From an uncultured Bacteroidales bacterium (GTDB lineage Bacteria; Bacteroidota; Bacteroidia; Bacteroidales; Paludibacteraceae): a DNA stretch of 64,000 bases. The notes below the pieces were generated by a model, which saw only the letters and a list, made by a program, of their open reading frames with translations, had not been told where the DNA came from and did no database searches. Position 1 is the first letter of the stretch, and each line of letters opens with the position of its first letter. The stretch is from contig CACZOA010000023.1 in NCBI GenBank assembly GCA_902782665.1, positions 1 to 64,000 of the forward strand, written 5' to 3'. The translations under genes and the position numbers were made by a program. Positions 1,590 through 49,240 of this stretch are shown piece by piece.

Positions 1590-2657
1590 ATGAAAAGAGT
1601 AATTTTATTTATTGCAGCATTTGTTACTGCGGTCTGCGCTTTTGCTCAGGAGCAGGGTAAGGCTGTAATTGAATTTAAGAAAACTGTTCATAACTTTGGT
1701 ACATTCCCAGAGGAGAACGGAAGAGTGTCTTGTACATTTGTCTTTGTTAACAAAGGTACTGAGGATTTGGTGTTGAGTAAGGTAAGAGCAAGTTGTGGTT
1801 GTACAACCCCAGATTGGACAAAGACTCCTGTTGCTCCTGGTGATAGCGGTGTTGTCAACGCTACATATAATGCGACTGGTCGTCCTGGTGCGTTTACTAA
1901 GACAATCACAGTTACAACTCAGAATGCTGGTGAGCACCGTCTTACTATCAAGGGAGAGGTTATCCCTAAGGCTAAGAAGATTGAGGATGAGTATCCATTC
2001 AGTGTAGGTGATCTTCGTTTGAAGAATCAGAACATTTATTTGCACAAAATCAAGAATCCTGAGTCAAAATCAGAGAAATTGATGGTTTACAATAATGGAT
2101 CTGCTGATATCACTCCAACATTCAAGAACGTTCCTTCATATATCACAGTATCTTGTGATAAGGAAGTTATCAAGCCAAAAAGTCAGGCAGAAATCACAGT
2201 CGTTTATGACTCTAAGAAGTCTGAGGAGTGGGGTACTGTAGTTTCTAACTTTGCAATCGTAGCTAACGGAGAGTCTAAGACTATTAACGTTAACGCAACA
2301 GTTGTTGAGGATTTCTCTAAGTTGACTGAGGAGCAGAAAAAGAACGCTCCAGTTATCTCAGTTGGTAGTGTTGTCCCTGTAAATGAGATTGCAAAGGGAT
2401 CTAAGAAGTCTTTCTTGTTCAAGATTGAGAACAAGGGTAAGGATCCATTGATCATCCGTAACATCACAGCTCTTGATGATAATGTAGTTATCACAAAGCC
2501 AAAGAAACCAATCAAGTCTGGTAAGTCAGGTGATGTATCTATCACTATCGACGCTAAGAACATGAAGGTTGGTGACTTCACTAAGCGTTTGACTATTATT
2601 TCTAATGACCCTAACACAAGCAGAAAAGTCGTGTCTGTTAGTGGTACAGTAAAATAA
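1590..2657 (+). CDS. Secreted DUF1573 (ASH/Ig-like) repeat protein
   Basis: The 355-aa protein begins with a signal peptide ending near CAFAQ (residues 16-20), so it is exported. The mature part is built from beta-rich Ig/ASH-like modules. The first is a clear DUF1573 domain (about residues 25-125) with an HNFGT start and the conserved ASCGCTTP motif, placing Cys69 and Cys71 as a CxC pair. Later modules (about 130-240 and 255-355) repeat the pattern without the cysteines. DUF1573 proteins are common in Bacteroidota and have no established enzymatic role. Its neighbours, a TlpA-like lipoprotein, a CcdA-like membrane protein and a second DUF1573 protein with a CxC motif, suggest extracytoplasmic thiol chemistry, which is inference. 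Confidence 0.85.
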   Translation: MKRVILFIAAFVTAVCAFAQEQGKAVIEFKKTVHNFGTFPEENGRVSCTFVFVNKGTEDLVLSKVRASCGCTTPDWTKTPVAPGDSGVVNATYNATGRPGAFTKTITVTTQNAGEHRLTIKGEVIPKAKKIEDEYPFSVGDLRLKNQNIYLHKIKNPESKSEKLMVYNNGSADITPTFKNVPSYITVSCDKEVIKPKSQAEITVVYDSKKSEEWGTVVSNFAIVANGESKTINVNATVVEDFSKLTEEQKKNAPVISVGSVVPVNEIAKGSKKSFLFKIENKGKDPLIIRNITALDDNVVITKPKKPIKSGKSGDVSITIDAKNMKVGDFTKRLTIISNDPNTSRKVVSVSGTVK

Positions 2658-2675
2658 TCTTAGATTGAATTATAT

Positions 2676-2707
2676 GGACGACATGGGTGACCTTGTCGTC
2701 CTTTTTT
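2676..2707 (+). terminator. Terminator after the DUF1573 gene
   Basis: GGACGAC (2676-2682) pairs with GTCGTCC (2695-2701), followed by TTTTTT. It lies 18 bp past the stop codon and only 14 bp before the next ATG, so read-through into the TlpA-like gene may be partial. Confidence 0.85.
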
Positions 2708-2721
2708 AGTTTTATAGATTT

Positions 2722-3822
2722 ATGGGTGGACTAATTAAAAAATTTTTCTTTTTGCTCCTTTGGATATCTTTGACTTCATGTACATATTATGATTCTTTTG
2801 TGATCAAAGGAAAGATAAGATGTCTGCCTATGCCGAGAGCATATCTTACTTATATTTCTCCTTTGACAGGAGTCAAGGATACTATTGCACAAAGTGAGAT
2901 ATATGGTGGCAACTTTGTCTTTAAAGGCAGAGTTGAAAACCCTTCTATGTGTCAGATAGAGATTGGTAAAAGAAGTATTTATCTGATGGTAGAGAATACC
3001 AATATAGAGGTAAACGGAACGTTGATGATTCCTGATCAAATTCAGATAACTGGAAGTTCTTCGAATGATGATTGGACACGTATACTAAGATTTGAAAGAG
3101 GGTATGAGGCTAAGCGTCGTAAGAATTGGCTGAAAATTGTCAATACAGATGTCTTTGATGAAATAGAAAAGATGGAGACAGAATATTATCAGACGTTTGA
3201 TTCCCTATACTACATGCTTAAATCTGAGGTCGCAAACAAACCTACTTCTTTTGGTTGCACATATTATGTCTATTATGCTTATGTGAATCAACTGTTTAGT
3301 TTGAATAAGATTGCGCAATGTCTAAACATGCTTGATGAAGAGTCTGTAGGTGCTTCTGAATATTATCAATATCTTAAGGATGAATTGATGTTGTATTCCG
3401 GTTTGGAGGTGAATAAGCCAGCTCCTCAATTCTCTGTGGTCACGATGGAAGGGGATACATTGACTCTAGACCATTATTATAATAAAAATTTGTTTTTGTT
3501 TTTCACTTCCTCTTGGTGTGATTCTTGCGAATCATATGCAAGAGATCTGGATGAGGTTCACCGTCGTTTCAAATCTCCAGGATTTGAGGTTTTGGAGATT
3601 TCATTGGATAAGACACAAGAGGATCTTAATGAGTTGGCGGAAGAATCATGTGGCTGGCCGATAGCTTGTGATTTTATGTATTGGGAGAGCCCAGTTACAA
3701 AACGATATGGTGTCCATAAAATTCCTTATGGTGTTTTGATAGATGGAAAACAAAGGATTAGTGCAATCAATCCGTCTGTTCAAGCACTTAGTTATAAGTT
3801 GAGAATTTTGCAAAATGAGTGA
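2722..3822 (+). CDS. TlpA-like thioredoxin-fold lipoprotein
   Basis: Residues 1-20 form a lipoprotein signal ending in the lipobox LTSC (lipidated Cys20). Residues about 25-130 resemble the DUF4369-type beta domain often found before Bacteroidota TlpA proteins. A helical spacer follows, then a C-terminal thioredoxin fold starting near NKPAPQFSV. The active site is WCDSC (Cys266 and Cys269), with a candidate cis-proline at KIPYG (Pro335). It is probably a membrane-anchored thiol-disulfide oxidoreductase facing the periplasm. Its stop overlaps the next gene, a CcdA-like membrane protein, by 8 bp, which implies translational coupling and a shared electron path. Confidence 0.82.
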   Translation: MGGLIKKFFFLLLWISLTSCTYYDSFVIKGKIRCLPMPRAYLTYISPLTGVKDTIAQSEIYGGNFVFKGRVENPSMCQIEIGKRSIYLMVENTNIEVNGTLMIPDQIQITGSSSNDDWTRILRFERGYEAKRRKNWLKIVNTDVFDEIEKMETEYYQTFDSLYYMLKSEVANKPTSFGCTYYVYYAYVNQLFSLNKIAQCLNMLDEESVGASEYYQYLKDELMLYSGLEVNKPAPQFSVVTMEGDTLTLDHYYNKNLFLFFTSSWCDSCESYARDLDEVHRRFKSPGFEVLEISLDKTQEDLNELAEESCGWPIACDFMYWESPVTKRYGVHKIPYGVLIDGKQRISAINPSVQALSYKLRILQNE

Positions 3823-35096: not shown

Positions 35097-35858
35097 TTAA
35101 ATTTTTTCTGCGTCGCTGGTCTTGATCCAAGCACGGTGTCCACCGCTTGTTTCGATCTCATACCAGTCTTTCACCTGCTGCTTTACCAACACTTTTGTTC
35201 CTTCATGTAGAACTAATGCATCTGTTGCAGTGTCCTTAGGTGAACTCTTCGCTGTCACAGAAGGTGTGAACACGATTGCATATTCGTGAGTTGTGATTTT
35301 CTCCTTGGCACTTTTTGCACAGAAGAAACTGACGATGCAGATCAGGGAAGCTAGGATAGCTCCGACAAATCCGATTTTGCGTACAGCCATCACTTTGACG
35401 TATAGATAAAGTGACGCTCCTGCCAAAGTAAGAAGGAAAAAGATGATTGACATTTTTGCCCAAGTGTTTGAACTGTAAAGGTTAACAAAACTTTGGGTCC
35501 ATTCTGAGATGGCAAGCTGGTCTACAGCAGACTCGTCTTTGTCAACAGTCTGTAGTTTAGCCAACTCAAGATTGCTTTTGATATCATCATCGTTTGGATC
35601 CAACAGAATCGCTCTTTCGTAATTCAGGATTGCAGGTGCAAGTTTGCCAGATTTATAGTAGGCATTTCCTAAATTATAATAAAGAGCTGCACTCTCCTGC
35701 GTCTTCAATAAATCCTCATATTGGGAGATCGCTTCATCAAACTTGTTGTTTGAGTATGCTGCGTTTCCGTTTATGATTCTGCTATCTGCTGCAGCCCATG
35801 CACTGAAAACAGATAGTGACAATATGATGGATAGAACTATATTTTTCATTGTCTTCAT
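35097..35858 (-). CDS. batE: BatE: TPR and SH3-like membrane protein of the aerotolerance operon
   Basis: The 253-aa protein has a signal peptide ending at AWA, then two or three TPR units (about residues 25-100, with ALYYNLGNAYYKSGKLAPAI). Two membrane helices follow (about residues 133-155 and 163-180), and the protein ends in an SH3-like domain ending HRAWIKTSDAEKI. Bat proteins are linked to aerotolerance in Bacteroides fragilis and to envelope integrity elsewhere, and their biochemistry is unknown. The start overlaps the batD stop by 4 bp. It is the last bat gene. Confidence 0.88.
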   Translation of the reverse strand: MKTMKNIVLSIILSLSVFSAWAAADSRIINGNAAYSNNKFDEAISQYEDLLKTQESAALYYNLGNAYYKSGKLAPAILNYERAILLDPNDDDIKSNLELAKLQTVDKDESAVDQLAISEWTQSFVNLYSSNTWAKMSIIFFLLTLAGASLYLYVKVMAVRKIGFVGAILASLICIVSFFCAKSAKEKITTHEYAIVFTPSVTAKSSPKDTATDALVLHEGTKVLVKQQVKDWYEIETSGGHRAWIKTSDAEKI

Positions 35859-37696
35859 TTCTTTACCTCCTCTTCAATGCTGTTGATTAGTGCAATTGCG
35901 TTGTTGTAGATATCAGAAGGAGAATCCTTCACTGCTGTTGGTGCGAATCTTGCAAACTGACAAGTGTCTAGCATTGCAGAGAAGTTTGCGATAGTATCTT
36001 CCTTCAATCCCTTTTCCTTCAAAATCTCTTCCATAGCCTCTTTGTTTTGTTGAGCTAGTGGAATATTGAATTTGTCTCCAACGAATCCTGTGATGGCTTT
36101 GCTTGTCTCATCGTAGAATGACTTCAAGTCTTCCTGATCAAGGAATGATTTTGCTTTAGCCAATCTCTTCAATGCCTGTTTGTTAGCTTTCTTCTTTCTC
36201 ACCAATACCATGTTGCTGTTTTCCTCTGCCAGTTTTCTTAGGAATAGGTAGGCGATGACGAATAGCACCAATGGAATGATAAACCATAGATAGAATGCCA
36301 ACGAGCCGAACAAGTAGTCGTCCTTAGGATATGTTGTAAGATCCTTTGTGTTGATGAAACGGATGTCGTTTGTTCCGATATACTTGATGCTCTCTTTGTT
36401 GGTGAAGTTTGAAACGACAGTCTGGTTGTCTGCAGTCTCAGCTCCTTTCTCTACATTGATCTTGTATTCTGGAGTTTTTAGAGTCTTATATGTCTTGCTC
36501 TTTATGTCAAAGTAGCTGAATTCAGCAGATGGAATGACATATTCTCCAGGATAACGTGCGATTGCAAGATATTCAATCTCCTTGGTTCCGTTCAAACCAG
36601 CATCAGATGCTTTGATTTTTGATGTGACCTTAGGATCGTAGAGCTCGAAGTCAGTAGGGAAGGTGATGTTAGGATCCTTCGCATACTTAAGGTTTCCATT
36701 ACCGTTGATCTTCACCTTGATAGTAATGGCATCGTTTGTCTTGTATCCATCTTCTGGAGTGATTGATGTGTTCATTGTGAATGAACCAACAGCACCGCTA
36801 AAATCAGCTGGCTTGCCATTCTTTGGCAATTCCTGTACGTTGATCTTTATTCCAGGGATAGTAAGGTTTTTCTTTAACTCTCTATAAGAAGCGAACATGT
36901 CACCGAAGAATCCGCCGCCGCCACCTTGTACGCGCACTTGGACAACTGCAGTGATATTTCCTTTCTCCAACTCTTGATTTCCACTCTTCTGTGGAATCAA
37001 AACACATTGTTTTAGAATGTATGTGTTGTAAACCTTTCCGTTTACATTCTCTTTGCTCTGACGTTTTGCTTCTGGCACTTCGATCTCCTGAGAGATGAAC
37101 CCTTTGTATTCTGGCAATTTGTAATCGTCAAAGCCACGTAGAGCGACTCTGTAGTATACCTTTGTTGTGGCGATAAACTGCTCTTGCTCGTACATCTTTG
37201 TCTTTGACAATTCTGTGCGAATGAACAGGTCATCGTCGTTTATTTTCATGCCATTGCTTGAACTTTGTGCTTGTTGCGCATTCTGGTTAGCGTTGGCTTC
37301 TCCTTTGATTACCTTGATTACCAGAGCGTTGGAACGAATGATTTTGTCTCCGACAGTCGCCTTGGCAGAAGATATTGTGTATGAGCCCTCTTTCTTTGGC
37401 ATCAAAACGTATGTGTACGTTGTAGCACTGTTTCTGGTCACCTGACCGTTGATGCTTTGGAAACTCTGGCTAGTTGACTGCTGAGGTCCATACAGAATTG
37501 TGAAGTCAGATAATGATTCAAGCGGTAACTGGACATTGTCTGATTCTGCATTGTTAAGTGTGAATGTCAAATTGAACCTTTGTCCTACAGCCACAACATT
37601 ATCTGCTTTCGCTACGAACGAAACATCTCCTGCTGCGAAAACTGACATTACACTAAAATAAGTTAAAGTCAGTAGTATGGCTAATATCTTTTTCAT
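35855..37696 (-). CDS. batD: BatD: large periplasmic oxygen-tolerance protein
   Basis: The 613-aa protein has a signal peptide (residues 1-22), a long beta-rich periplasmic part (BatD/DUF7507-like, several Ig-type modules with VAVGQRFNLTFTLNN near the start), one membrane helix (about residues 465-490) and a basic-helical cytoplasmic tail. Residues about 140-150 are low-complexity (NQNAQQAQSSS), and a glycine run VQGGGGGFFGD lies near residue 260. It is in the canonical batC-batD-batE order and overlaps batE by 4 bp. It probably forms the periplasmic scaffold for the VWA proteins BatA and BatB. Confidence 0.9.
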   Translation of the reverse strand: MKKILAILLTLTYFSVMSVFAAGDVSFVAKADNVVAVGQRFNLTFTLNNAESDNVQLPLESLSDFTILYGPQQSTSQSFQSINGQVTRNSATTYTYVLMPKKEGSYTISSAKATVGDKIIRSNALVIKVIKGEANANQNAQQAQSSSNGMKINDDDLFIRTELSKTKMYEQEQFIATTKVYYRVALRGFDDYKLPEYKGFISQEIEVPEAKRQSKENVNGKVYNTYILKQCVLIPQKSGNQELEKGNITAVVQVRVQGGGGGFFGDMFASYRELKKNLTIPGIKINVQELPKNGKPADFSGAVGSFTMNTSITPEDGYKTNDAITIKVKINGNGNLKYAKDPNITFPTDFELYDPKVTSKIKASDAGLNGTKEIEYLAIARYPGEYVIPSAEFSYFDIKSKTYKTLKTPEYKINVEKGAETADNQTVVSNFTNKESIKYIGTNDIRFINTKDLTTYPKDDYLFGSLAFYLWFIIPLVLFVIAYLFLRKLAEENSNMVLVRKKKANKQALKRLAKAKSFLDQEDLKSFYDETSKAITGFVGDKFNIPLAQQNKEAMEEILKEKGLKEDTIANFSAMLDTCQFARFAPTAVKDSPSDIYNNAIALINSIEEEVKK

Positions 37697-37745
37697 TTTT
37701 CCTTTTTCTTATTAATGCAAAAATAATCAAATTTCTGGTATTTTA

Positions 37746-38447
37746 TTACCAGTCTTTCTCTATTCTTTTCTTTTTTGCATTCTTTATTTGTTCCTTCATT
37801 CTCTCGTCCTGCTTGTCCTTTTCATCTCTTTCAAGGGCTTCTAGCAGTTGACGGGCAGAATTTTCGTCCATGTGGTGTTCTCCCTCACGAGCATCGTCTT
37901 TCTGATCGTGATTCTCTTGCTCTTTTCCATCTTTAGGAGGCTCCTGCTGTTGGTCTTGCTGTTGTTGCTGCTGTTGTTGTTGCTGATTCTGCTGCTGTTG
38001 TTGAATCTGCAACATTCTCTTGGCATACGCAAGGTTGTAGCGAGTCTCTTCGTCGTCTGGATTGAGCTTAAGGCTTTTCTTGTAGGCATCGATACTCTCC
38101 TCATACTTTTTGTTTTTGAGGTATGTGTTGCCTATGTTGTGCATGATGGCAGCGTTTTCTTTGTCGCTGTTCTTCTCACTTATCGCCTGCTTGTAGTTCT
38201 CTAATGCGGAATCATATTCGTCTCTACGGTAATAGGTGTTGCCCATATTGTAGTTTGCGATTTTTGATCCTACATTCTTGTCCAATGCTTTTCTATATTC
38301 GTCTTCAGCTCCTTTGTAGTCTTTGGCTTCATATTTGTCGTTTCCCTTACGGATGAACTCATCCTCTGGGTTTGATGCAAATGAAGGAAGACTGAAAAGG
38401 GTAACTATTGTAGTCGCTAACAATTTATTTGTCATAGTCTTGTTCAT
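37746..38447 (-). CDS. batC: BatC: TPR protein with polyglutamine tract
   Basis: The start at MNKTMTNKLLA gives 233 aa. A signal peptide is followed by three TPR motifs (about residues 28-135, with ANYNMGNTYYRRDEYDSAL and IMHNIGNTYLKNKKYEES). A glutamine tract of about 22 residues (with one Asn and one Asp interrupting) follows at about 145-168, then a charged acidic/basic tail. The tract is encoded by mixed CAG/CAA codons in a repetitive stretch. BatC is proposed to act as a periplasmic scaffold. The polyQ run is unusual and may vary in length. Confidence 0.88.
   Translation of the reverse strand: MNKTMTNKLLATTIVTLFSLPSFASNPEDEFIRKGNDKYEAKDYKGAEDEYRKALDKNVGSKIANYNMGNTYYRRDEYDSALENYKQAISEKNSDKENAAIMHNIGNTYLKNKKYEESIDAYKKSLKLNPDDEETRYNLAYAKRMLQIQQQQQNQQQQQQQQQQDQQQEPPKDGKEQENHDQKDDAREGEHHMDENSARQLLEALERDEKDKQDERMKEQIKNAKKKRIEKDW
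37947..38010. repeat. Trinucleotide-rich stretch encoding the BatC polyQ tract
   Basis: On the plus strand this is a CTG/TTG repeat with few interruptions, i.e. CAG/CAA on the coding strand. Such tracts can change length by slippage without shifting frame. Confidence 0.7.
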
Positions 38448-38469
38448 GGTCAATGTTAATTAGACTGTC

Positions 38470-39483
38470 CTAAAATAGTTTGAATTTAGAAAGGAACTTG
38501 TTCTTTCTCTCTCTGATGAATATTTCAAGAATAAGAATCACAAGCACTATCCATGCGATTGTTTGGAACTGCTCGTCGAAATCTGTGTAGACTTTGCTTT
38601 CCACGTCTCCTTTTGCAGACTTGTCTAGCTCCGACTGAATGTATTTCAACGCATTGTTCGTGTTGTCCGCTCTGACGTACAAACCTCCACCTGCAGCGGC
38701 AATTTCTGCGGCCATCTGTTCGTTGAGCTTAGTGATGACAGTCTGTCCGTCTATATCTTTTCTGAAGCTTCCGTGTCCGTCTGGTATTGGAGCTCCTTCG
38801 GGTTTACCGATACCTATCACATGCACCTGTATGCCGCTTTCGTATGCTGCTTTAGCCTGCTCGACAGCGTCGTCTTCATGGTTCTCACCATCTGTGATCA
38901 CTATGATGGCTTTTCCTATGTTAGTCTTGCTGCTGAATCCATTGACAGCCATTTTGATAGCGGCTCCGATTGCTGTACCCTGTGTCGGAATCACACCAGT
39001 GCTTATATTGGATGCATACATTTTAGCTGCACTGTAGTCGCTTGTCATCGGCAACTGTGTGAATGCCTGGCCTGCAAAGACAATGAGTCCGAGTTTGTCG
39101 TTCTCCATTCCGTCTACAAACTTATAGATCATCTGTTTTGATTTCTGCAGACGGCTTGGTTTGATATCCTCACAAAGCATTGAGTTGGATACGTCCATCG
39201 CAATCATTACCTCAACACCTTTTCTCTTCACCATCTCAAGTTTGGATCCGAACTGTGGGCGTGCTGCAACGAATATGGCTCCTGCAAGCGCAATCATAAA
39301 CAGTGCACACTTGAAGTAGTATCTCCAAGTTGTGTAGCCTGGCATAAATTGCTTTAGAATCTGATAGTTTCCGTATTTCTTCAGATTTCTGCTTCTGCGA
39401 TACATTGCATAACCGAAAATCGCGGCCATCGGTATCAATGCGAAAAGCAGATAAAGATATTCTGAATTTGCAAATCTAAACAT
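38470..39483 (-). CDS. batB: BatB: membrane VWA-domain protein
   Basis: The 337-aa protein has N-terminal membrane helices (about residues 8-25 and 55-78), a von Willebrand A domain with the intact MIDAS motif MDVSNS (about residue 95), TQGTAIG and ITDGENHEDD, and a C-terminal membrane helix (IAWIVLVILILEIFI). It is the standard paralogue of BatA. The VWA domain faces the periplasm and is expected to bind protein partners in a Mg2+-dependent way. It starts 10 bp after batA and ends 16 to 23 bp before batC. Confidence 0.92.
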   Translation of the reverse strand: MFRFANSEYLYLLFALIPMAAIFGYAMYRRSRNLKKYGNYQILKQFMPGYTTWRYYFKCALFMIALAGAIFVAARPQFGSKLEMVKRKGVEVMIAMDVSNSMLCEDIKPSRLQKSKQMIYKFVDGMENDKLGLIVFAGQAFTQLPMTSDYSAAKMYASNISTGVIPTQGTAIGAAIKMAVNGFSSKTNIGKAIIVITDGENHEDDAVEQAKAAYESGIQVHVIGIGKPEGAPIPDGHGSFRKDIDGQTVITKLNEQMAAEIAAAGGGLYVRADNTNNALKYIQSELDKSAKGDVESKVYTDFDEQFQTIAWIVLVILILEIFIRERKNKFLSKFKLF

Positions 39484-39493
39484 ACTCTTACTC

Positions 39494-40483
39494 TTATGGG
39501 TTGTGGCGCACTACTAAATAGCGCACTAAAAATTCAAGAAGCATGATACCAAGCAACGCAATTGCGAATGGCAGATACTCCTCGTTCTTTTTGCTGTATT
39601 CTTGAACACTGATTTTTGTCTTTTCAAGTTGGTCAATCTCTTCGTAGATTGCTTTCAAAGATTTGTTGTCAGTAGCACGGAAATATTTTCCATCAGTGTT
39701 GCCGGAAATCGATTTAAGTGTGCTTTCATCAATATCAACTGGCACCATCTGGCGCTGGATTCCGAATGCAGTCTGGAAAGGGTAGGGCGCCATACCTTTT
39801 GTTCCCACTCCAATAGTGTAGACGCGGATTCCGAATGTCTTGGCTAGATCACTCGCCATCATCGGGTCGATTTCACCTGTGTTGTTCGAACCATCGGTTA
39901 GCAGGATGATGACTTTTGATTTTGCCTGGCTGTCTTTCAGTCTGTTTACAGCTGATGCCAAACCAAGTCCGATTGCAGTACCGTTTGCCTGGATCATCTG
40001 TTCGTTGATCACGCCAAAAAGTTGTGAAAGGGCAGCTTTGTCTGTTGTAAGCGGACACTGAGTGAAACTCTCTCCTGAGAATACTACAAGTCCGATATTG
40101 TCGTTTGGACGGCTGTTGACGAATTCAGAACTGATGGTTTTGGCTGCCTCAAGTCTGTTTGGCTTCAAGTCTTCCGCCAACATTGATCCTGAGATATCTA
40201 TTGCCATCATGATGTCTATACCCTCAACATTCTGGTCGGACCATGTCTCTGAACTCTGAGGTCGAGCAAGGATGACGCATAATAATGCTAATGATATCAT
40301 TCTCAACGCGAAAGGCAAATGGAGAATGTAGTATCTCAAACTTTTAGGCGCTCCTTTGAATGGACTGATTGTCGAAACCTGCAGATTTGCGGTCTGTTTG
40401 TTTCGTCTCCATATATACCATGCCGTAATAGGGATGATAAGCAGTGCCAGATATAAATATTGTGGTGATTCAAATGTAAACAT
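39494..40483 (-). CDS. batA: BatA: membrane VWA-domain protein
   Basis: The 329-aa protein has N-terminal hydrophobic segments (about residues 8-25 and 55-73), a VWA domain with MIDAS residues in AIDISGS (about residue 95), NGTAIG and LTDGSNNTGEID, and a C-terminal membrane helix. In Bacteroides fragilis batA belongs to the operon needed for surviving oxygen exposure. It lies 6 bp after the 342-aa membrane protein gene. Confidence 0.92.
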   Translation of the reverse strand: MFTFESPQYLYLALLIIPITAWYIWRRNKQTANLQVSTISPFKGAPKSLRYYILHLPFALRMISLALLCVILARPQSSETWSDQNVEGIDIMMAIDISGSMLAEDLKPNRLEAAKTISSEFVNSRPNDNIGLVVFSGESFTQCPLTTDKAALSQLFGVINEQMIQANGTAIGLGLASAVNRLKDSQAKSKVIILLTDGSNNTGEIDPMMASDLAKTFGIRVYTIGVGTKGMAPYPFQTAFGIQRQMVPVDIDESTLKSISGNTDGKYFRATDNKSLKAIYEEIDQLEKTKISVQEYSKKNEEYLPFAIALLGIMLLEFLVRYLVVRHNP

Positions 40484-40489
40484 AAGTCG

Positions 40490-41518
40490 TTATGCTAAAT
40501 TATTTGAATTGCTGTTTATTGCCAATGGGGCCTCTTCCTTTTTTGATTTCTTGTCTTTTGCAGGCTCTGTATATACAGGCTTTGTTCTGCTTACGATAAG
40601 GTAAGCGTTGGCAAGACTCATTTCGCAATCCTCTTCTGTAGGAATTGCTTTTGCGAATTTGGCCATATCGGCTTTGCTGAGGATACTCTTCAATTCTGGG
40701 ATAATCGGCATTGCGTCGGTGTTGTATCTTAGCTCGTCAAGAATCTCATCTGATGTCATCTCCATCGCACTGATGTTGAATCTGCTGCAGAAATACTCTC
40801 TAAGAGTTTCTGTGACGTCAGTATAATATTCTTTGATTCGAGTTGAATCCTTCCAAATGCGTTTTGCTTTTATCTCATCAAGCTTGTTTATTGCCACTAC
40901 ATCGATTGGCAAAACAATCTCAGGTTCATCAGAAACAATGCCTTCTCCCTGTTTCTTTGCTAACTTCTTCTGGATATATGGCCATCCATATTTCCAACCT
41001 AAGAATCCGAGCACTGCTATAAGCAGAATGATAAGAAGGATTGTGAAGAATTTTCCCCAATCGAAACCAAGTGTCATGATGTCTTTGATGTCCTTGACAC
41101 TTGTTGAGTCAGGTTGTCCAGCTTCATCAAGTTTGATTTCAATGTCGTTGTTTACTTCCAATGCCAATGGCTCGGATGTAAGAGTCTCTCCAGTTTTGAT
41201 ATTGATATATTTGAATGGAGGAACGACGCAACTTCCTGAATCAAACGATGTTATGATCACATCCTGCTTGATTTCAAGCGAGCCTCCCATTTCCGTAGTG
41301 TCGGCCTGTTTTAGCTTTACCACATCAATCTTACCAGTGGTGTCTTTTTCCACCTGTAACTCGAAGTCCTGATCCTTTGGTTGGGTCAAAGTCAAGTGGA
41401 CAGCTGTCTGACGGCCTATTCCGATATGGGCTGAATCCATCTTTGCAGTAAGACCTGCGGCACTAGCTACAAGACTATTGCATAAGAAAAAAACTATGGC
41501 TATACTGTGAAATTTCAT
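40490..41518 (-). CDS. Membrane protein of the bat operon (DUF4381-like)
   Basis: The 342-aa protein has a signal peptide ending near ASAAG (about residue 21), a periplasmic beta domain (residues 25-150), one membrane helix (about residues 157-176), and a cytoplasmic part with a conserved helical region around YYTDVTETLREYFCSRF and a disordered Lys/Glu tail. The position between the DUF58 gene and batA is conserved in Bacteroidota bat loci. It resembles DUF4381-type components of MoxR-VWA systems, but the match is by layout rather than a diagnostic motif. Confidence 0.78.
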   Translation of the reverse strand: MKFHSIAIVFFLCNSLVASAAGLTAKMDSAHIGIGRQTAVHLTLTQPKDQDFELQVEKDTTGKIDVVKLKQADTTEMGGSLEIKQDVIITSFDSGSCVVPPFKYINIKTGETLTSEPLALEVNNDIEIKLDEAGQPDSTSVKDIKDIMTLGFDWGKFFTILLIILLIAVLGFLGWKYGWPYIQKKLAKKQGEGIVSDEPEIVLPIDVVAINKLDEIKAKRIWKDSTRIKEYYTDVTETLREYFCSRFNISAMEMTSDEILDELRYNTDAMPIIPELKSILSKADMAKFAKAIPTEEDCEMSLANAYLIVSRTKPVYTEPAKDKKSKKEEAPLAINSNSNNLA

Positions 41519-41531
41519 GAATTACAATGTT

Positions 41532-42419
41532 TTATGCTCTTTTCTTGAAGAGTTTCATCAGCGACTTCACATAGTCGTCTGTTGTGGCGATAGAGATATA
41601 ATCCACACCACTTTTTGCAAACCCTTGTGCGAGCAATTCGTCTCTCTCCTTTACATACTGTTCGTACACTCTTCGCGTAGAGGCACTGGATGTGTCGACC
41701 CACATGTCTTCATTGGTCTCCGCATCCTTCATTTTGATTAGTCCGGCATCAGGCAACTCTTTTTCTCTAGGGTCAAAGATCTGCAATGCAGCCAAATCAT
41801 GTTTCTTGCTTGCGATAAGAAGTGAATCAGAATAGTTGCTATCATCTATAAAGTCTGAAATCAAGAATGCCGAACAACGCTTCTTTACCATGTTGGTGAA
41901 GTATTTGAGCGCAAAATCGATATTTGTCTTCCTACTTGTAGGTTGGAAACTTAGTAATTCTCTGATAATATAGAGGATATGTTTCTTTCCTTTCTGAGGC
42001 GGAATATATTTTTCGATTTTGTCAGAAAAGAAGATGACGCCGATTTTATCGTTGTTTGTCGCTGCGGAGAAGGCGATTGTTGCCGCCACCTCAGTCAGAT
42101 ACTCTCTCTTTGTCTGCTCGGCTGTTCCGAAGTCATCACTGCCTGATACGTCGACAAGGAGCATCAGTGTCATTTCTCGTTCCTCTTCAAACACTTTGAT
42201 AAATGGCTTTGAATAGCGTGCGGTGACATTCCAGTCGATGCTTCTCACATCGTCTCCAGGCATGTATTCGCGAACTTCCGCGAACTGCATACCACGACCT
42301 TTGAACGCAGTGTGGTACTCTCCAGCAAAGATGTTGTTGGAGAGTCCTCGCGTCTTTATCTCTATTTTGCAGACTTTCTTTAAAAGTTCGCTAGTGTCTA
42401 CCTTTTTGTTGTCTTCCAT
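41532..42419 (-). CDS. DUF58 protein with VWA-like MIDAS
   Basis: The start at MEDNKKVDTSEL gives 295 aa; a TTG two codons upstream was not preferred. The DUF58 core motif YMPGDDVRSIDWNVTAR is present (about residue 50), followed by a VWA-like fold with LLVDVSGSDDFG as MIDAS (about residue 90). It is cytoplasmic and is the usual partner of MoxR ATPases. It starts 32 bp after moxR, and together they probably act as a chaperone pair acting on BatA and BatB. Confidence 0.92.
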   Translation of the reverse strand: MEDNKKVDTSELLKKVCKIEIKTRGLSNNIFAGEYHTAFKGRGMQFAEVREYMPGDDVRSIDWNVTARYSKPFIKVFEEEREMTLMLLVDVSGSDDFGTAEQTKREYLTEVAATIAFSAATNNDKIGVIFFSDKIEKYIPPQKGKKHILYIIRELLSFQPTSRKTNIDFALKYFTNMVKKRCSAFLISDFIDDSNYSDSLLIASKKHDLAALQIFDPREKELPDAGLIKMKDAETNEDMWVDTSSASTRRVYEQYVKERDELLAQGFAKSGVDYISIATTDDYVKSLMKLFKKRA

Positions 42420-42451
42420 CACCAAATATCTTTAATCGGTAAATTGGTAAA

Positions 42452-43462
42452 TTAAGGCACCTCTACTGCATTGATGATCTCGTTGATGATGTCATCAGTG
42501 TTCATGTTGTTTGCCTCTGCCTCGTAAGTCAAACCGATACGGTGGCGAAGAATGTCGTGGGCAACTGCTCTCACGTCTTCTGGCAAAACATATCCTCTGC
42601 GCTTTACGAATGCGTAAGCTCTTGATGCCTTTGCAAGTGAGATTGATGCACGTGGAGAACCTCCGAATGCGATCATGTCCTTCAAATTGTTAAGTCCATA
42701 TTCTTCTGGGAATCGAGTAGCAAACACAATCTCGGTGATATATTTCTGGATCTTCTCATCCATATATACGTCATGCACAACTTTTCTTGCCTCGATGATA
42801 TCCTCTGGCTTAAGAAGTGCAGTGACAGTCTTTGGCTCACGCTTTAGCTGTGCCTGGATGATACGCATTTCCTCTTCTCTCTTTGGATATGTGATGATAA
42901 CCTTGAACATGAAACGGTCCATCTGCGCTTCTGGCAATGGGTATGTACCTTCCTGCTCAACTGGGTTTTGTGTAGCCATAACCAAGAATGGAGATGGCAA
43001 CTTGAATGTTGTCTCACCGATTGTCACCTGACGCTCCTGCATTCCCTCAAGCAATGCACTCTGTACTTTAGCTGGAGCACGGTTGATCTCATCCGCCAAT
43101 ACGAAGTTTGCAAAGATAGGTCCTTTCTTGATTGTGAATTCCTCGTTCTTCTGGCTATAGATCTGTGTACCCAACACGTCGGCTGGCAACAAGTCTGGTG
43201 TGAACTGGATTCTGCTGTATTTAGCTGAAATTAATTGGGCTAGAGTAGTGATTGATGCTGTCTTAGCCAATCCTGGAACACCTTCAAGCAACACATGTCC
43301 GTCTGCCAAAAGGGCTATGATCAAAATTTCCTTTAGATGCTTCTGTCCTTCAATGATTGTGTCCATTCCAGAAAGAAGGTTGTCAACGAAAGCACTCTGT
43401 CTTTCAATTCTTTCATTCAAACGGCTGAAATCTGGATTACCGCTTCCTATTACTTCACTCAT
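42452..43462 (-). CDS. moxR: MoxR-family AAA+ ATPase
   Basis: The 336-aa protein has Walker A GVPGLAKT (about residue 59), Walker B FVLADEINRAPAKVQSALLE (about residues 121-140), the sensor region MATQNPVEQEGTYPLPEAQ, and a C-terminal lid domain. MoxR ATPases help assemble or activate VWA-domain complexes. It is the first gene of the bat operon, with a TATACTTG promoter-like box 37 bp upstream. Confidence 0.94.
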   Translation of the reverse strand: MSEVIGSGNPDFSRLNERIERQSAFVDNLLSGMDTIIEGQKHLKEILIIALLADGHVLLEGVPGLAKTASITTLAQLISAKYSRIQFTPDLLPADVLGTQIYSQKNEEFTIKKGPIFANFVLADEINRAPAKVQSALLEGMQERQVTIGETTFKLPSPFLVMATQNPVEQEGTYPLPEAQMDRFMFKVIITYPKREEEMRIIQAQLKREPKTVTALLKPEDIIEARKVVHDVYMDEKIQKYITEIVFATRFPEEYGLNNLKDMIAFGGSPRASISLAKASRAYAFVKRRGYVLPEDVRAVAHDILRHRIGLTYEAEANNMNTDDIINEIINAVEVP

Positions 43463-43590: not shown

Positions 43591-43622
43591 TTCCAAAAGG
43601 AGACGCTTATTATTGCGTCTCC
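43591..43622 (-). terminator. Terminator of the HU/HU-LysM operon
   Basis: GGAGACGC (43599-43606) pairs with GCGTCTCC (43615-43622). On the minus strand the stem is followed by TTTTGGAATATT. Confidence 0.85.
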
Positions 43623-43628
43623 AATGGT

Positions 43629-45281
43629 TTATTTTACGAATTCGTGCTGTATCTCTTTGGCTGTTAGGATACTATGCTCTGAATCTGGATTCACAAGTTT
43701 CGTGTTGTCTAGCATTGGCACTTTGATCTTCGTTCCGGCCTTGATGTGGTTTGGATTTTTGATCACATCTTTGTTGTAAAGATAAATGTAAACCCAAAAG
43801 TCTTTTGCACCGTAGTGTCGAAGAGATACGAGTGTCAGACGACTATTATTACCTAACTTTTCTTCTATCGGATCTCCCTGGTCTGTGATGTCCATTTCTG
43901 GATGTTTTTTCTTCATATAGTTGATGAAGTCATCCTTGAAGTTTGTGTATTTCTGGACATTTTGTTTGACTGCAGGTTTTTCTTCCGTCTTCTCTGCTGT
44001 GTCTTGAGTTGTAGCTTCAGCAATCGAGTCAATCGCTTCTGCATTCTCTTCTGTCTTTTCAGCAATGATCTGTTCCTCAAAGTCCTTGGTCTCCTCATAT
44101 TCAGAAGAATCAACCATGGCTTCTGTCTTCGCAGGTTCGTTTCCTGTTAGTTTATAACGTATTTTGCTGACAATGTTAGGGTCAGACATCCAAGCTACTA
44201 AACCGACAACGAACAGAATACAAAGGAACAATATGATTGCGATTCCTAGTTTCTTTCCGTGTGAGTTTTTGTCATTATTCTCATCATCATCTTCTTTTTC
44301 TTTTGGCAAATCATGACGTTTGAATGTAGACGCGTAAGTGATTGTCTCTTCTGTTTTTGCATCAGATTTTTTATCATCATCTGCTTTAGAATCTTCCTTA
44401 GTCTCCTCCTCAGGCTTTTCTGCTTCAATCTTATCAGTAGAAGATGTATTGGAGTTTTCTGTTGTTGTCTCCTCTGTATGTGTATCTTCGTTGATTGTGA
44501 CAGTTGCAGTTGCTTCTGTTGTTGACTCTTCTGTATTTTCCTCTTCGCTGATAGTAGACGATGAGTTGGAAGTTCCTATATTTTCATTTGTTGTAGAAGA
44601 CACTGTTGTATTAACCTCTTCGTTGACGATAGAAGAAGTTGTTGTGTTTTCTGCCTCTGCAATATTTTCAACCTCAACACTCTGCTCTTCACTAATGATG
44701 TTAGGAATTTGCTGAGTTTCAGTGCTTTGACTTTCAGTGGTGTTTTCTGTAATTGGAGTCTCTACAGTTACCGTCTCCTCTGTTTTTTCATTTGTCTCTT
44801 GGTTGACAACCTCTGTATTTAGATTGCTTATTGTTGCGACAACAGGTTCAACGATAGTGCTTTCAACTGTTTGTACAGGTTCCTCTGTTTCAGTCTTTGC
44901 ATTATTTACTTCTATATCATCATCTTCTGGCTCTGGAGCGTCCACCTCTCCTTCTGGAGCAAGCACGTAGCTTGGTTCGAAGTGAGCATAAGGCTTGTTT
45001 AAGGTTTCCGCCAAAGAAGAATCTGGTGTGAAAGAAATCTTATTGTGAGCTGGAATAATTGTGTTGGCTCCTGTATTTACATCTTTACTCTTTCTCGCAT
45101 CAACTTTGACAACTTTGAATGTGCCAAGACCTTTGATCTTGACATTTCCTTCTGTTTGGAGGCCTTCGCTTATTTGAGCAAAGAATAAACGTAGAAAGTC
45201 TTCCCAACCTTTTTTGTTGATCAGGCTTACGTTTGTGCTCAATAGCTGGGATAGTTCAGAAATAGTGATTTTTTTATTCAT
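43629..45281 (-). CDS. HU-domain / transmembrane / LysM-like fusion protein
   Basis: The 550-aa protein has three parts. Residues 1-98 are an HU/IHF-type DNA-binding domain (MNKKITISELSQLLST onward, with the core GNVKIKGLGTFKVVK and the arm/RKSKDVNTG region). Residues about 110-340 are a long acidic Ser/Thr/Glu-rich disordered linker. Residues 345-366 are a single hydrophobic helix. A second acidic spacer leads to a C-terminal LysM-like domain (about residues 475-525) with LTLVSLRHYGAKDFWVYIY and KAGTKIKVP. No signal peptide precedes the HU domain, so the expected topology is HU in the cytoplasm and LysM in the periplasm, where LysM binds peptidoglycan. The gene overlaps an HU gene by 8 bp and lies beside ftsK. 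Confidence 0.88.
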   Translation of the reverse strand: MNKKITISELSQLLSTNVSLINKKGWEDFLRLFFAQISEGLQTEGNVKIKGLGTFKVVKVDARKSKDVNTGANTIIPAHNKISFTPDSSLAETLNKPYAHFEPSYVLAPEGEVDAPEPEDDDIEVNNAKTETEEPVQTVESTIVEPVVATISNLNTEVVNQETNEKTEETVTVETPITENTTESQSTETQQIPNIISEEQSVEVENIAEAENTTTSSIVNEEVNTTVSSTTNENIGTSNSSSTISEEENTEESTTEATATVTINEDTHTEETTTENSNTSSTDKIEAEKPEEETKEDSKADDDKKSDAKTEETITYASTFKRHDLPKEKEDDDENNDKNSHGKKLGIAIILFLCILFVVGLVAWMSDPNIVSKIRYKLTGNEPAKTEAMVDSSEYEETKDFEEQIIAEKTEENAEAIDSIAEATTQDTAEKTEEKPAVKQNVQKYTNFKDDFINYMKKKHPEMDITDQGDPIEEKLGNNSRLTLVSLRHYGAKDFWVYIYLYNKDVIKNPNHIKAGTKIKVPMLDNTKLVNPDSEHSILTAKEIQHEFVK

Positions 45282-45561
45282 TGTAGTCCTTCTGTATTGA
45301 ATCCTTCAAAATATCACTTGGCTTGAATCCGCAGACCAATTTTGGTGCTGTCATGATTCGCTGTTTAGTAGTGGGGTTGTAGGAAATTCTTCCATCTTTT
45401 TTGCGTAGGTCGAATGAGCCGAAACCAGAAATCATGATTGTGTCGTTGCTCTCCAATACTTTTGCCATAGTGGCAACAGTATCGTCAATCATACTTTCAA
45501 TCTGTTGTGCCTTCATTCCGGTTTTTTCAGATAGAGCGGCTACCAAATCTTTGTGTTTCAT
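45274..45561 (-). CDS. HU-family DNA-binding protein
   Basis: The 95-aa protein has the HU fold: helical N-terminus (MKHKDLVAALSEKTGMKAQQ), the turn MISGFGSFDLRKKDGR, the DNA-binding arm with YNPTTKQRIMTAPKLV, and a C-terminal helix. The arm keeps the NP intercalating proline region. It is co-translated with the HU-TM-LysM gene (8-bp overlap), so the two may form a heterodimer in which this partner completes the HU fold. It has its own TATATTTG promoter box. Confidence 0.93.
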   Translation of the reverse strand: MKHKDLVAALSEKTGMKAQQIESMIDDTVATMAKVLESNDTIMISGFGSFDLRKKDGRISYNPTTKQRIMTAPKLVCGFKPSDILKDSIQKDYNE

Positions 45562-45595: not shown

Positions 45596-45603
45596 CAAAT
45601 ATA
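45596..45603 (-). promoter_or_regulatory. -7 box of the HU operon
   Basis: On the minus strand this reads TATATTTG, 35 bp before the HU start codon. Confidence 0.6.
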
Positions 45604-45790: not shown

Positions 45791-45824
45791 GAAAAAAATA
45801 GAGACGCGGCATCTCCACGTCTCC
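45791..45824 (-). terminator. Terminator of ftsK, GAGACG repeat family
   Basis: GAGACG (45801-45806) pairs with CGTCTC (45818-45823), followed on the minus strand by TATTTTTTT. The arms match the hairpins at 27099, 43599 and, more loosely, 15547. Confidence 0.8.
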
Positions 45825-45865
45825 AATCTTTTCTCTCTAACTTTTAATCTCTAACCTTTTCTCTC

Positions 45866-48448
45866 TTATCTCGGATTATTGTTGTTTATATTCTGCAAAA
45901 TCATTTCAAGAGTGTCAAGGTCGTTGATATATACTTCTCTTGGTTTGCTTCCTACTTGTGGGCCTACGATTCCAGCAACTTCCAACTGGTCCATCAATCG
46001 TCCAGAACGGTTGTAACCCAAACTGAATTTTCGTTGCAACATTGATGTTGATCCTTGTCCGGAACCGACAATCAAACGTGCTGCCTCTTCAAAGAACGGA
46101 TCTCTGTTGCGTAAGTCGATGCCTTTATCTTCTGCTGATTCAACATTTGGATCCACATATTCTGGCAATTCATATGGCTCGAGATATCCTTCCTGTGCTT
46201 GGATAAAGTCGTTGATGGCCTCTACCTCTGGAGTGTCTACAAATGCACATTGCACACGTTCAAGGTTTCCGTTAGACAGGATAAGCATGTCACCTCGTCC
46301 GATAAGTGTTTCTGCTCCTGTGCAGTCGAGGATGGTTTTTGAGTCGATGGCCTGTGCTGTCTTACATGCGAAACGTACAGGGAAGTTTGATTTGATCAAA
46401 CCTGTGATGACGTTGACTGACGGACGTTGTGTCGCAAGTATGACATGGATTCCAATCGCACGTGCTTTTTGTGCCAGTCGTGCCACAGGTGTCTCGATGT
46501 CTTTTCCTACTTGCATGATAAGGTCGGCAAACTCATCAATGATCACTACGATATATGGCAAGAAGTGATGTCCGTTTTCTGGGTTCAGACGGCGTTCTTT
46601 ATATTTATCGTTGTATTCTATAATGTTTCTGACCTTTGCTTTCTTCAACAGTTCGTAGCGGTTTTCCATCTCTACACAAAGACTGTTCATTGCGGCTACC
46701 ACCTTGGTTACGTCGGTGATGATCGCTTCGTCTTCTCCTGGCATTTTTGCAAGATAGTGCTTTAGCAGTGGAGCGTACATTGAAAACTCTACTGTCTTTG
46801 GATCGACTAGCACGAGCTTTAGTTCCGACGGGTGTTTCTTATACAATAGTGACATCAGCACTGCGTTCAACGCTACAGACTTTCCTTGTCCTGTGGCTCC
46901 GGCACAGATGACATGCGGACATTTCGCAAGGTCGATCATGTAGTTGTTGTTGGTGATGGTTTTTCCAAGGATGATTGGCAACTCCATCGTGTTGGTCTGG
47001 TACTTTTTGCTTGCCACCATATCATGCATCGGCACGATAAGTTTCTTCTGGTTGGGCACTTCTATACCTATAGTTCCTTTGCCTGGGATAGGGGCGATGA
47101 TTCGCACACCTTCGGCTTTAAGGCTCATAGCGATATCCTTGTTCAGACTCTGCACTTTGGAAATACGGATTCCTGGAGCCAACGTGATTTCATATAGTGT
47201 GACTGTAGGTCCAAGTTGGGCTTCGATGCTTGTCACCTGTACTCCGTATGTTTCGAGTGCTGAAATGATTCGTTGCTGATTGTCTTTGAGCTCCTCCTCG
47301 TTTGCTTCAATCTTATTGTTAGGATATTCCTTCAAAAGTTCAATTGGAGGGAACTGGTAGTGAGGTAAATCCTCTCTTGGATTTATTGGCTCAAGCTGTA
47401 CGGAATTTTCTTCTTCAAATACCGAAACTGGCATCTCTTGTTCTGCAGGAGTAAGAGTTTGCTCGTTTGCTGACGCTGCGTCTTTAACTGCATTTGGTTC
47501 GTGGTCGAATGGAAGATCATCGTCGTCGTCATTTATTTTGACTTTGAATCCTCCATCTATATTCTCCGCTGGCTTCTCTACTGTTTTTTCAGTTGGCTCT
47601 TCTTTAACCTCAGTCTCGACTACGGTTTTTTCTTCTTGTTTTTCTTCTTTTATGTCGTTATTATTCTCTTCAATTTCTTCTTCATCCTCTTCTACAGTCG
47701 ATTTAGTATCAGGCGTAGTTGTTTCCTCGTTCGAAGATGTGGTAGTCGACTCTCTGTTTTGCTCATTCGCAGTGTTGTTGTCGATCTTTTCCTCTCCCTC
47801 TGTAGAAGACTCAATTTCTTTTTTTGCAAAGTAGTTTTTGACTTTTTCTACGACGTTAGGATACATAAGAATCATGAATATCATAAGTGTAGTGAGAAGC
47901 ACGAGTGAGGTTCCGAACTCTCCAATATATGTGTTCAGTGTAGTGGCTGTGTCCTGTCCGTGAAGTCCACCCCAATATATTGAACTGTTGTCTGAGAATG
48001 GAGTGCAGATAAGTCCGAGCAAAAGAGATATCCATAGCATCCAAAACAGACAATTGCCAATTATTCGACCGATTTGCAGTTTGAAAGATGTCAATATCTT
48101 CATTCCGATACACCAAAGAATTATGATGATGCAGAACGATGAAACTCCGAATGTTTTGTTGACCATGAAGTCGGCGATTACAGCACCGGAAAAACCAGAT
48201 GCGTTAAGTGCACCGTCTTCCGCAATTTGTGTAGGAGATACTCCTGTCTCGATCAGACTTGCATCGGTAGAACTTGTGAAAAAGAAATTGATATAAGCCA
48301 CTGTTACGTATAGGCATACCACTAGCAGTAAAATACCAACACAAATCTTTGTGTTGCTATTGGTCACACTGTTCTTGATGCGTGTCTTTAGTTTGGAGAA
48401 GAAGTTTTCTTTCTTTTCTCCTTCTACAGGTTCATTCTTGCTCGTCAT
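45866..48448 (-). CDS. ftsK: FtsK/SpoIIIE DNA translocase
   Basis: The 860-aa protein has a membrane domain with about four helices (residues 36-215), a long acidic linker (about 220-385), and the motor domains with Walker A GATGQGKS (residues 517-524) and Walker B IVVIIDEFADL (about 633-643). A C-terminal gamma winged helix (about 784-840, with QRKFSLGYNRSGRLMDQLE) recognises polar KOPS-like sequences. It pumps chromosomal DNA through the division septum and activates XerCD at dif. The HU and HU-LysM genes follow downstream in the same orientation, but promoter and terminator signals separate them. It is monocistronic, with TAATTTTG upstream. Confidence 0.96.
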   Translation of the reverse strand: MTSKNEPVEGEKKENFFSKLKTRIKNSVTNSNTKICVGILLLVVCLYVTVAYINFFFTSSTDASLIETGVSPTQIAEDGALNASGFSGAVIADFMVNKTFGVSSFCIIIILWCIGMKILTSFKLQIGRIIGNCLFWMLWISLLLGLICTPFSDNSSIYWGGLHGQDTATTLNTYIGEFGTSLVLLTTLMIFMILMYPNVVEKVKNYFAKKEIESSTEGEEKIDNNTANEQNRESTTTSSNEETTTPDTKSTVEEDEEEIEENNNDIKEEKQEEKTVVETEVKEEPTEKTVEKPAENIDGGFKVKINDDDDDLPFDHEPNAVKDAASANEQTLTPAEQEMPVSVFEEENSVQLEPINPREDLPHYQFPPIELLKEYPNNKIEANEEELKDNQQRIISALETYGVQVTSIEAQLGPTVTLYEITLAPGIRISKVQSLNKDIAMSLKAEGVRIIAPIPGKGTIGIEVPNQKKLIVPMHDMVASKKYQTNTMELPIILGKTITNNNYMIDLAKCPHVICAGATGQGKSVALNAVLMSLLYKKHPSELKLVLVDPKTVEFSMYAPLLKHYLAKMPGEDEAIITDVTKVVAAMNSLCVEMENRYELLKKAKVRNIIEYNDKYKERRLNPENGHHFLPYIVVIIDEFADLIMQVGKDIETPVARLAQKARAIGIHVILATQRPSVNVITGLIKSNFPVRFACKTAQAIDSKTILDCTGAETLIGRGDMLILSNGNLERVQCAFVDTPEVEAINDFIQAQEGYLEPYELPEYVDPNVESAEDKGIDLRNRDPFFEEAARLIVGSGQGSTSMLQRKFSLGYNRSGRLMDQLEVAGIVGPQVGSKPREVYINDLDTLEMILQNINNNNPR

Positions 48449-48613: not shown

Positions 48614-49240
48614 TTAATCCTTGAAATTTGGAGATTTAATTTCTGGGTTTTTGAATGTTATATTCAGATGTTGTTTGAATCCTGCGTTTACAAGAATAGG
48701 TTGGAGCACATTTTCGGTGTTGCTTTTGGCTATGTTGTTGATTTCTATGTATGAAGTGCTTTTTTTGACATCTTCAATGCCATGCTTGATGACATACTCA
48801 CGCTCTTGCTCTGTAAAGTTTGATCTGAACCAAGATACATACTCACGTGATTTGTCGTGGTCGATTTTTGTACTTGTGATTTCAAGTGTAGGAGAGGGGA
48901 GGGTTATGTCTATTGTAGAGTCGTTTACTGATATGTCATTGGTAGTGACGAAGTTAAGGTCTACAATGATTTTCATTTTGACCTCAATTGGGACCATCAG
49001 TCTTTTTTCTCCTGGCAGAGGTGTGCTGTATCCAAATATTTTTAGTTGGCTGTCGTCGTCAAACGATACGGTCTTGAGCACTGTATATTCAGCAACCTCC
49101 AATTTAGAACAATGGTGTACTCTTTCCCAGAGTACACCAATTGTATCAATTTTATTTGTCTGACTGTCGACGCTTGGATTTTCATTGCCACTGCATGCGA
49201 ATAGCAGAAGTGCGAGCAACGTCGACAGAAATAATCTCAT
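48614..49240 (-). CDS. DUF4230 lipoprotein
   Basis: The 208-aa protein has a lipoprotein signal with FACS (Cys16). The mature domain shows the DUF4230 layout: an early strand KLEVAEYTVLKTV, then IEVKMKIIVDLNFVT, a repeated strand-turn with DSTIDITLPSPTLE, and a C-terminal helix plus strand ending KQHLNITFKNPEI. Family function is unknown. It starts 4 bp after dapA and shares its promoter. Confidence 0.82.
   Translation of the reverse strand: MRLFLSTLLALLLFACSGNENPSVDSQTNKIDTIGVLWERVHHCSKLEVAEYTVLKTVSFDDDSQLKIFGYSTPLPGEKRLMVPIEVKMKIIVDLNFVTTNDISVNDSTIDITLPSPTLEITSTKIDHDKSREYVSWFRSNFTEQEREYVIKHGIEDVKKSTSYIEINNIAKSNTENVLQPILVNAGFKQHLNITFKNPEIKSPNFKD

Follow-up and report, generated by a model that had tools for sequence, protein, structure and literature searches.

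A conserved pair of HU genes, one of them encoding a membrane-anchored protein with a LysM-like end, as a candidate chromosome-to-wall tether in Bacteroidales and Balneolaceae

The stretch of DNA analysed here (the window; 64,000 nucleotides, positions 1 to 64,000 of contig CACZOA010000023.1, assembly GCA_902782665.1, from an uncultured Bacteroidales bacterium of the Paludibacteraceae) encodes on its minus strand a small HU protein directly followed by a 550-residue protein, in which an HU domain is joined through an acidic linker and one predicted membrane helix to a LysM-like end. This two-gene unit, called the HU pair below, occurs in many Bacteroidales, an order frequent in the gut, and also in the Balneolaceae, to which they are only distantly related. 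We give an even chance to the reading that the two proteins form a heterodimer that would hold DNA in the cytoplasm while its LysM-like end grips peptidoglycan in the periplasm, tethering the chromosome to the wall. The unit is laid out as follows; starts of open reading frames (ORFs) were set mechanically and gene overlaps are therefore approximate.

43629 to 45281, minus strand: fused protein of 550 amino acids (aa), HU-linker-transmembrane (TM) helix-LysM-like; from the ORF, PF00216 at 61.8 bits and relatives over the full length
45274 to 45561, minus strand: partner HU, 95 aa; PF00216 at 80.1 bits; R53, K55, R58, N62, P63, K80 and K86 in HU numbering
45274 to 45281, minus strand: 8 bp overlap of partner stop and fusion-gene start, from the ORF list
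44988 to 45281, minus strand: HU domain, residues 1-98 of the fused chain; from Pfam, the AlphaFold2 (AF2) model and structural matches; V68 at the arm tip
44250 to 44987, minus strand: acidic linker, predicted to be cytoplasmic and disordered, residues 99-344; 66 D/E and 16 K/R; predicted local distance difference test (pLDDT) mostly below 50
44184 to 44249, minus strand: predicted membrane helix, residues 345-366; from sequence and the AF2 model
43869 to 44183, minus strand: predicted periplasmic stalk, residues 367-471; from the AF2 model; middle of low confidence; helices at 368-378 and 450-459
43710 to 43868, minus strand: LysM-like domain, residues 472-524; from the models; strand 472-475, helices 482-490 and 493-502, strand 518-521

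The succession of HU domain, acidic linker, single predicted membrane helix and LysM-fold end had been proposed for the 550-residue protein from the letters alone (the sequence-only reading), and it is real, as judged from Pfam (HU domain), the sequence, the AF2 models and the structural matches. Both proteins pass the PF00216 cut-off of 22.4 bits. AF2 was used to model single chains (the full protein, and residues 440-550 separately). In the full-length model, built on 46 sequences, confidence is high for the HU part and for a domain that begins near residue 450; between them lie a linker that is mostly without structure and a helix at 344-365, and the only hydrophobic helix called from the sequence of the fused chain covers residues 345-363. 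The modelled HU part gave 38 matches in the Protein Data Bank (PDB) at E <= 0.001, titled HU/IHF or HU-like. No sequence-specific DNA-binding domain was found by Pfam.

Conservation was followed in the best 80 of at least 551 confirmed relatives from GTDB species genomes, whose titles name Bacteroides, Prevotella, Parabacteroides, Dysgonomonas, Paludibacteraceae and similar groups. A C-terminal profile detected the LysM-like domain in 74 of these 80 named loci, and the counts on the C-terminus and on topology refer to the 74; the other six lie at contig ends (L019, L078), have a split frame (L063) or match the profile weakly or not at all (L042, L061, L095). In L063, the fusion gene is divided between two ORFs (2436-3350 and the next one) by a frameshift or an assembly error. 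All 74 keep the domain order, 73 have a helix with a hydrophobicity of 1.6 or more (one of them with a second such helix) and 72 have an acidic linker, the median linker length being 156 aa. The first 100 residues are free of a hydrophobic stretch of at least 1.6 in every one of the 74, which agrees with the earlier claim that a signal peptide is missing. Counts of lysine and arginine (K/R) are higher N-terminal to the helix than C-terminal to it in 57 relatives, lower in six and equal in 11. We infer that the chain would be oriented with its N-terminus inside and its C-terminus outside.

The C-terminal domain is named LysM-like here because the window protein stays below the Pfam LysM cut-off: PF01476 is absent among its matches at E <= 1, and of 20 relatives scanned only one passed (P0106, 22.9 against a cut-off of 20.9). 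Modelled alone, residues 440-550 reached a mean pLDDT of 92.7 with the strand-helix-helix-strand order of the beta-alpha-alpha-beta LysM fold. A Foldseek search with this model returned nothing at E <= 0.001 (best 6.3e-3), and the top rows of the structural alignments, with middling scores, were Kbp, LysMs of contractile-tail baseplates and glycan-binding LysMs. By sequence, the closest solved LysM was E. coli Kbp (8e-11 with the family profile). A Kbp-like potassium binding by the domain is not favoured since the potassium site of that protein sits in its BON domain. The LysM-like end may bind glycans containing N-acetylglucosamine.

A small HU gene lies directly upstream of the fusion gene in all 80 named loci, at a spacing of -86 to +116 bp and with an overlap in 36 of them. 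To this set we added a draw of 198 genomes sampled evenly from the order (120 families), with matches cut at E <= 1e-19. Matches were obtained in 36 genomes, and since these are confined to 21 of the 120 families the unit is not universal in the order. Twenty of the 21 families contributed one genome each (f82 was left out); some of the sampled genomes may be of the same species as named loci. A separate partner HU was found in 18 of the 20 families, in 15 by phmmer and in three (L139, L141, L144) by the partner profile, lying -11 to +11 bp from the start of the fusion ORF and overlapping it in 16 of the 18 cases.

In the other two families (L143, L145) a single chain contains a partner-type HU, a fusion-type HU, a TM helix and a LysM-like end, and it occupies the slot between rimO and moxR. 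The case is clear in L145, with the partner type at residues 2-79 (5e-13) and the fusion type at 88-188 (1.4e-14); it is weaker in L143, in which the first domain scores 3e-5 and the second is of the fusion type with 21.8 versus 7.5 bits. The profiles of the two types, made from the 80 named pairs, sort all 40 HU domains of the 20-family set correctly. The two HU types are distinct and are inherited together. These natural HU-HU fusions are the best evidence for a pairing of the two HUs. Together with the strict adjacency of the genes they back the earlier suggestion of the neighbouring HU as dimer partner, and they lead us to infer that the two probably pair as a heterodimer. In two genomes that also carry the HU pair, second ORFs of 558 and 633 aa match the C-terminal domain and are possible paralogues (G336:C27:7581-7871 and G486:C121:6324-6527).

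The two HU types differ at the residues that touch DNA, which we take from HU and IHF structures to be HU positions 53, 55, 58, 80 and 86 and the arm proline; positions were read by alignment to a plain HU of the window genome. At the arm-tip proline position the 80 named fused chains have V (73), I (6) or a gap (1), whereas the partners have P (78), L (1) or E (1). Basic residues (K/R) are found in the fused chains versus the partners in 1 and 79 of 80 at position 53, 0 and 79 at position 55, 0 and 79 at position 80, and 67 and 79 at position 86; only position 58 is basic in 79 of 80 in both. The fused chain of the window has V68 at the proline site and V, V and T at positions 53, 55 and 80, and thus lacks the arm proline and most of the basic saddle of a canonical DNA-bending HU, both of which its partner possesses. 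The 20-family set is similar, with the proline in one fused chain (L142) and in 18 partners, and no arm is left in the fused chains of three families (L139, L141, L144). The expectation of the sequence-only reading that residues 1-98 bind DNA well is therefore not borne out for Bacteroidales: the membrane-bound HU looks like a poor DNA binder next to a partner that looks like a good one, and since the fused HU is largely without contact residues, it would mainly be the partner that holds DNA. The window genome also encodes a further small HU without the proline (L002, C79, 1501-1800; arm GRNITQ).

Outside the order, a draw of 296 genomes from the phylum gave 33 matches at E <= 1e-19: the window genome, two genomes close to Bacteroides, and 30 genomes from a family (f24) represented by 35. 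A member of this family (L101) matches a Rhodohalobacter protein with 100% identity and has Balneolaceae names among its next matches, and we call these loci Balneolaceae-type. From the 30 passing genomes 27 loci were taken; G069, G077, G175, G227 and G286 had matched more weakly. The partner lies directly upstream of the HU-TM-LysM-like gene in all 27 (-20 to +2 bp), and the type profiles assign all 54 HU domains correctly. The arm proline is kept in both chains in 27 of 27 loci each, and K/R occupies position 53 in 20 fused chains and 10 partners and position 80 in 16 fused chains and one partner. Because both Balneolaceae-type chains keep the proline, the loss of DNA contacts in the fused chain is likely a later change within Bacteroidales, and DNA bending by the HU pair is likely the older state.

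From these observations the following mechanism can be proposed. The partner HU and the HU domain of the fused chain would heterodimerise, and the complex would hold DNA without sequence preference; in Bacteroidales the partner would supply most of the DNA contact and introduce a single kink. The acidic linker would be a flexible spacer between this head and the inner membrane, which the anchor chain would cross with its N-terminus in the cytoplasm, and on the periplasmic side its LysM-like end would hold on to peptidoglycan. As a result, nucleoid and wall would be joined by a loose strap that is independent of DNA sequence and might position the nucleoid or couple the chromosome to envelope growth, the membrane-anchored heterodimer working in the manner of the HubP/FimV hubs.

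The surroundings of the pair in the window include possible transcription signals and the ftsK gene:

45596 to 45603, minus strand: TATATTTG, a candidate -7 element fitting TAnnTTTG, 35-42 bp before the partner ATG; weak
45799 to 45825, minus strand: terminator-like hairpin with T-run after ftsK; from the scan, RNA fold z -5.4
43599 to 43622, minus strand: hairpin after the fusion gene and before moxR; flagged by the scan on the plus strand only, RNA fold of the minus strand z -5.1
45866 to 48448, minus strand: ftsK, upstream of the HU pair and beyond the hairpin

The two hairpins, after ftsK and after the fusion gene, make the HU pair look like a bicistron of its own. The promoter call for TATATTTG is weak because it is one of 78 matches in the window to TAnnTTTG, the Bacteroides -7 consensus, with 57 expected. 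The gene for the septal DNA pump FtsK had been placed just downstream of the pair; on the minus strand it lies upstream, behind the terminator-like hairpin. A functional link with it is not supported, and as a conserved neighbour it was rejected. Among the 68 named loci with enough sequence it is linked upstream in one (L016, the closest relative), and in none of the 20 loci from the order-wide draw, whose flanks extended to about 7 kb at most. Of the synteny that had been suggested for checking, the HU pair thus held (80 of 80 named and 27 of 27 Balneolaceae-type loci) and the ftsK part did not. In FtsK of the window, membrane part and motor are connected by an E/T-rich acidic linker whose make-up is similar to that of the HU fusion linker. 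A DUF4230 protein with a lipoprotein-like start is encoded between ftsK and a dihydrodipicolinate synthase gene (48614-49240, minus strand).

Downstream of the pair, a run of genes on the minus strand (35855-43462) encodes, according to Pfam, a MoxR-type AAA protein (AAA_3), DUF58, an unnamed protein, VWA/BatA, VWA, TPR and BatD, and resembles the Bacteroides aerotolerance (bat) operon. Of the 75 named loci with room for it, 63 have a MoxR-type gene no more than 1 kb downstream, and 59 of 68 have two VWA genes; rimO and ftsY are upstream in 55 of 68 each (L093 queries, Pfam-checked). In the 20-family set MoxR is a neighbour in 14 loci, rimO in eight and ftsY in seven. Although common in Bacteroidales, the MoxR-Bat and rimO-ftsY genes were rejected as parts of the unit: moxR, rimO and ftsY, like ftsK, were not found in the flanks of 1.2-1.5 kb of all 27 Balneolaceae-type loci, and a wider Rhodohalobacter-type locus (L151) has aconitase and a CHAD protein as neighbours. 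Since none of these links holds throughout, the HU pair alone was taken as the unit.

The neighbourhood nevertheless bears on another explanation, which is that the HU pair is a membrane-spanning regulator whose LysM-like end would sense the wall or the periplasm while the HU pair alters the DNA architecture of promoters, with the moxR-bat genes as targets or partners. One-component regulators of the ToxR type are a precedent for such a design. The frequent MoxR and VWA neighbours, in named loci and in families alike, speak for it, as do the AAA_3/MoxR, DUF58, BatA and BatD proteins that Pfam names in the window; for Bat proteins a role in oxidative defence has been proposed (PMC3557215). We nevertheless consider a regulator unlikely: MoxR is missing within 1 kb in 12 of the 75 named loci as well as next to every Balneolaceae-type pair, in the window a hairpin separates the fusion gene from moxR, and Pfam finds no domain for sequence-specific DNA binding. 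The nearly equal linkage of rimO and ftsY also suggests that the neighbourhood may reflect slow rearrangement only.

Two further explanations were considered. The HU folds might be protein adaptors and not DNA binders, so that the pair would recruit another protein to the membrane; an adaptor role has reportedly been proposed for the HU domains of eukaryotic CCDC81. The fused chain without contact positions, and the families in which its arm is deleted, would fit such a role, yet the partner keeps all five basic positions in 79 of 80 named loci each and the proline in 78, and the Balneolaceae-type chains both keep the proline, even though their partners are basic in only 10 of 27 at position 53 and one of 27 at position 80. 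We regard adaptors as rather improbable. The other explanation leaves the DNA tied to a membrane complex and not to peptidoglycan, the LysM-like domain being a structural module, as the LysM of Kbp may be, or a clamp for an envelope protein. It draws on Kbp as the best sequence match among solved LysMs, on Kbp and the contractile-tail baseplate LysMs in the top structural rows and on the single relative that passes the Pfam LysM cut-off, and we hold it to be rather improbable too.

The proposed tether can be compared with known systems. HU and IHF heterodimers, which we take the structures 2o97 and 1ihf among the structural matches to be, share the PF00216 fold and two unlike subunits with the HU pair; they differ from it in that one window subunit is predicted to be membrane-anchored and, in Bacteroidales, is without the proline and most basic saddle positions. 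The HubP/FimV hubs, with a periplasmic LysM, one TM region and a long acidic cytoplasmic part, resemble its predicted layout; HubP localises oriC to the cell pole and the LysM of P. putida FimV binds peptidoglycan, although P. putida FimV has no role in chromosome segregation (PMC12918733). In contrast to these hubs, the window protein has the reversed chain order, no signal peptide and an HU head where the hubs have the TPR FimV domain, and the complex formed by the HU pair would itself contact DNA. No FimV/TPR or N-terminal LysM match was found by Pfam in the fused protein, and the analogy is meant as functional, without a claim of homology.

Possibly, the fused chains have been noticed before as HU_bacL, a Bacteroidetes HU clade with long, charged, acidic-rich C-termini of on average 238 residues (PMC5683647). 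The HU core with an acidic C-terminus would fit, and the two may be the same proteins; in contrast to the present description, the terms LysM and transmembrane are absent from the main text of that paper and a partner gene goes unmentioned in the portions consulted. The fusion is visible to annotation pipelines, as relatives carry the Joint Genome Institute (JGI) annotation 'nucleoid DNA-binding protein/nucleoid-associated protein YgaU'. Among the open-access papers listed in literature searches, we recognised none on an HU-TM-LysM protein. To our knowledge, nucleoid positioning and envelope attachment have been little studied in Bacteroidales, dominant bacteria of the gut. A two-gene unit common to Bacteroides and Balneolaceae makes direct attachment of DNA to peptidoglycan a testable question, and the division of roles between two subunits, if true, would mark a new stage in the evolution of HU, the best-known bacterial histone-like family.

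A parallel is found in the CCDC81-like HU proteins of prokaryotes, which have two HU domains, a TM segment and a C-terminus of a wall-binding type (SPOR), and for which Burroughs et al. reportedly predicted a role in chromosome partition in 2017. This HU-SPOR analogue limits the novelty of the HU pair. The differences are that the CCDC81-like proteins belong to another HU clade, end in SPOR instead of a LysM-like domain and carry both HUs on one gene, and the HU pair with its LysM-like end would realise the same design a second time and separately. The fused window protein itself was rejected as CCDC81-like, as PF18174 is absent and PF18175 reaches 12.4 bits against a cut-off of 35. PF18174 occurs in 174 of the 198 order genomes and in 17 of the 20 genomes from which the 20-family loci were taken. 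It is possible, at somewhat less than even chance, that an obligate HU heterodimer straps the nucleoid to the wall, with one subunit having become the TM wall anchor and, in Bacteroidales, having handed DNA binding to the other, and that together with the HU-HU-TM-SPOR protein of the same cells it would give these bacteria a general means of attaching the chromosome directly to peptidoglycan. By Pfam, SPOR (PF05036) is present at the end of one CCDC81-like relative (L146, 33.7 bits) and was not detected in another (L147) or in the copy of the window genome. This copy (L013, contig C24, ORF 1324-2184) is 286 aa long and has tandem HUs, with PF18174 and PF18175 both over the cut-off; it probably has a TM segment and adjoins genes for indole-3-glycerol phosphate synthase and a trpD-like member of glycosyl transferase family 3.
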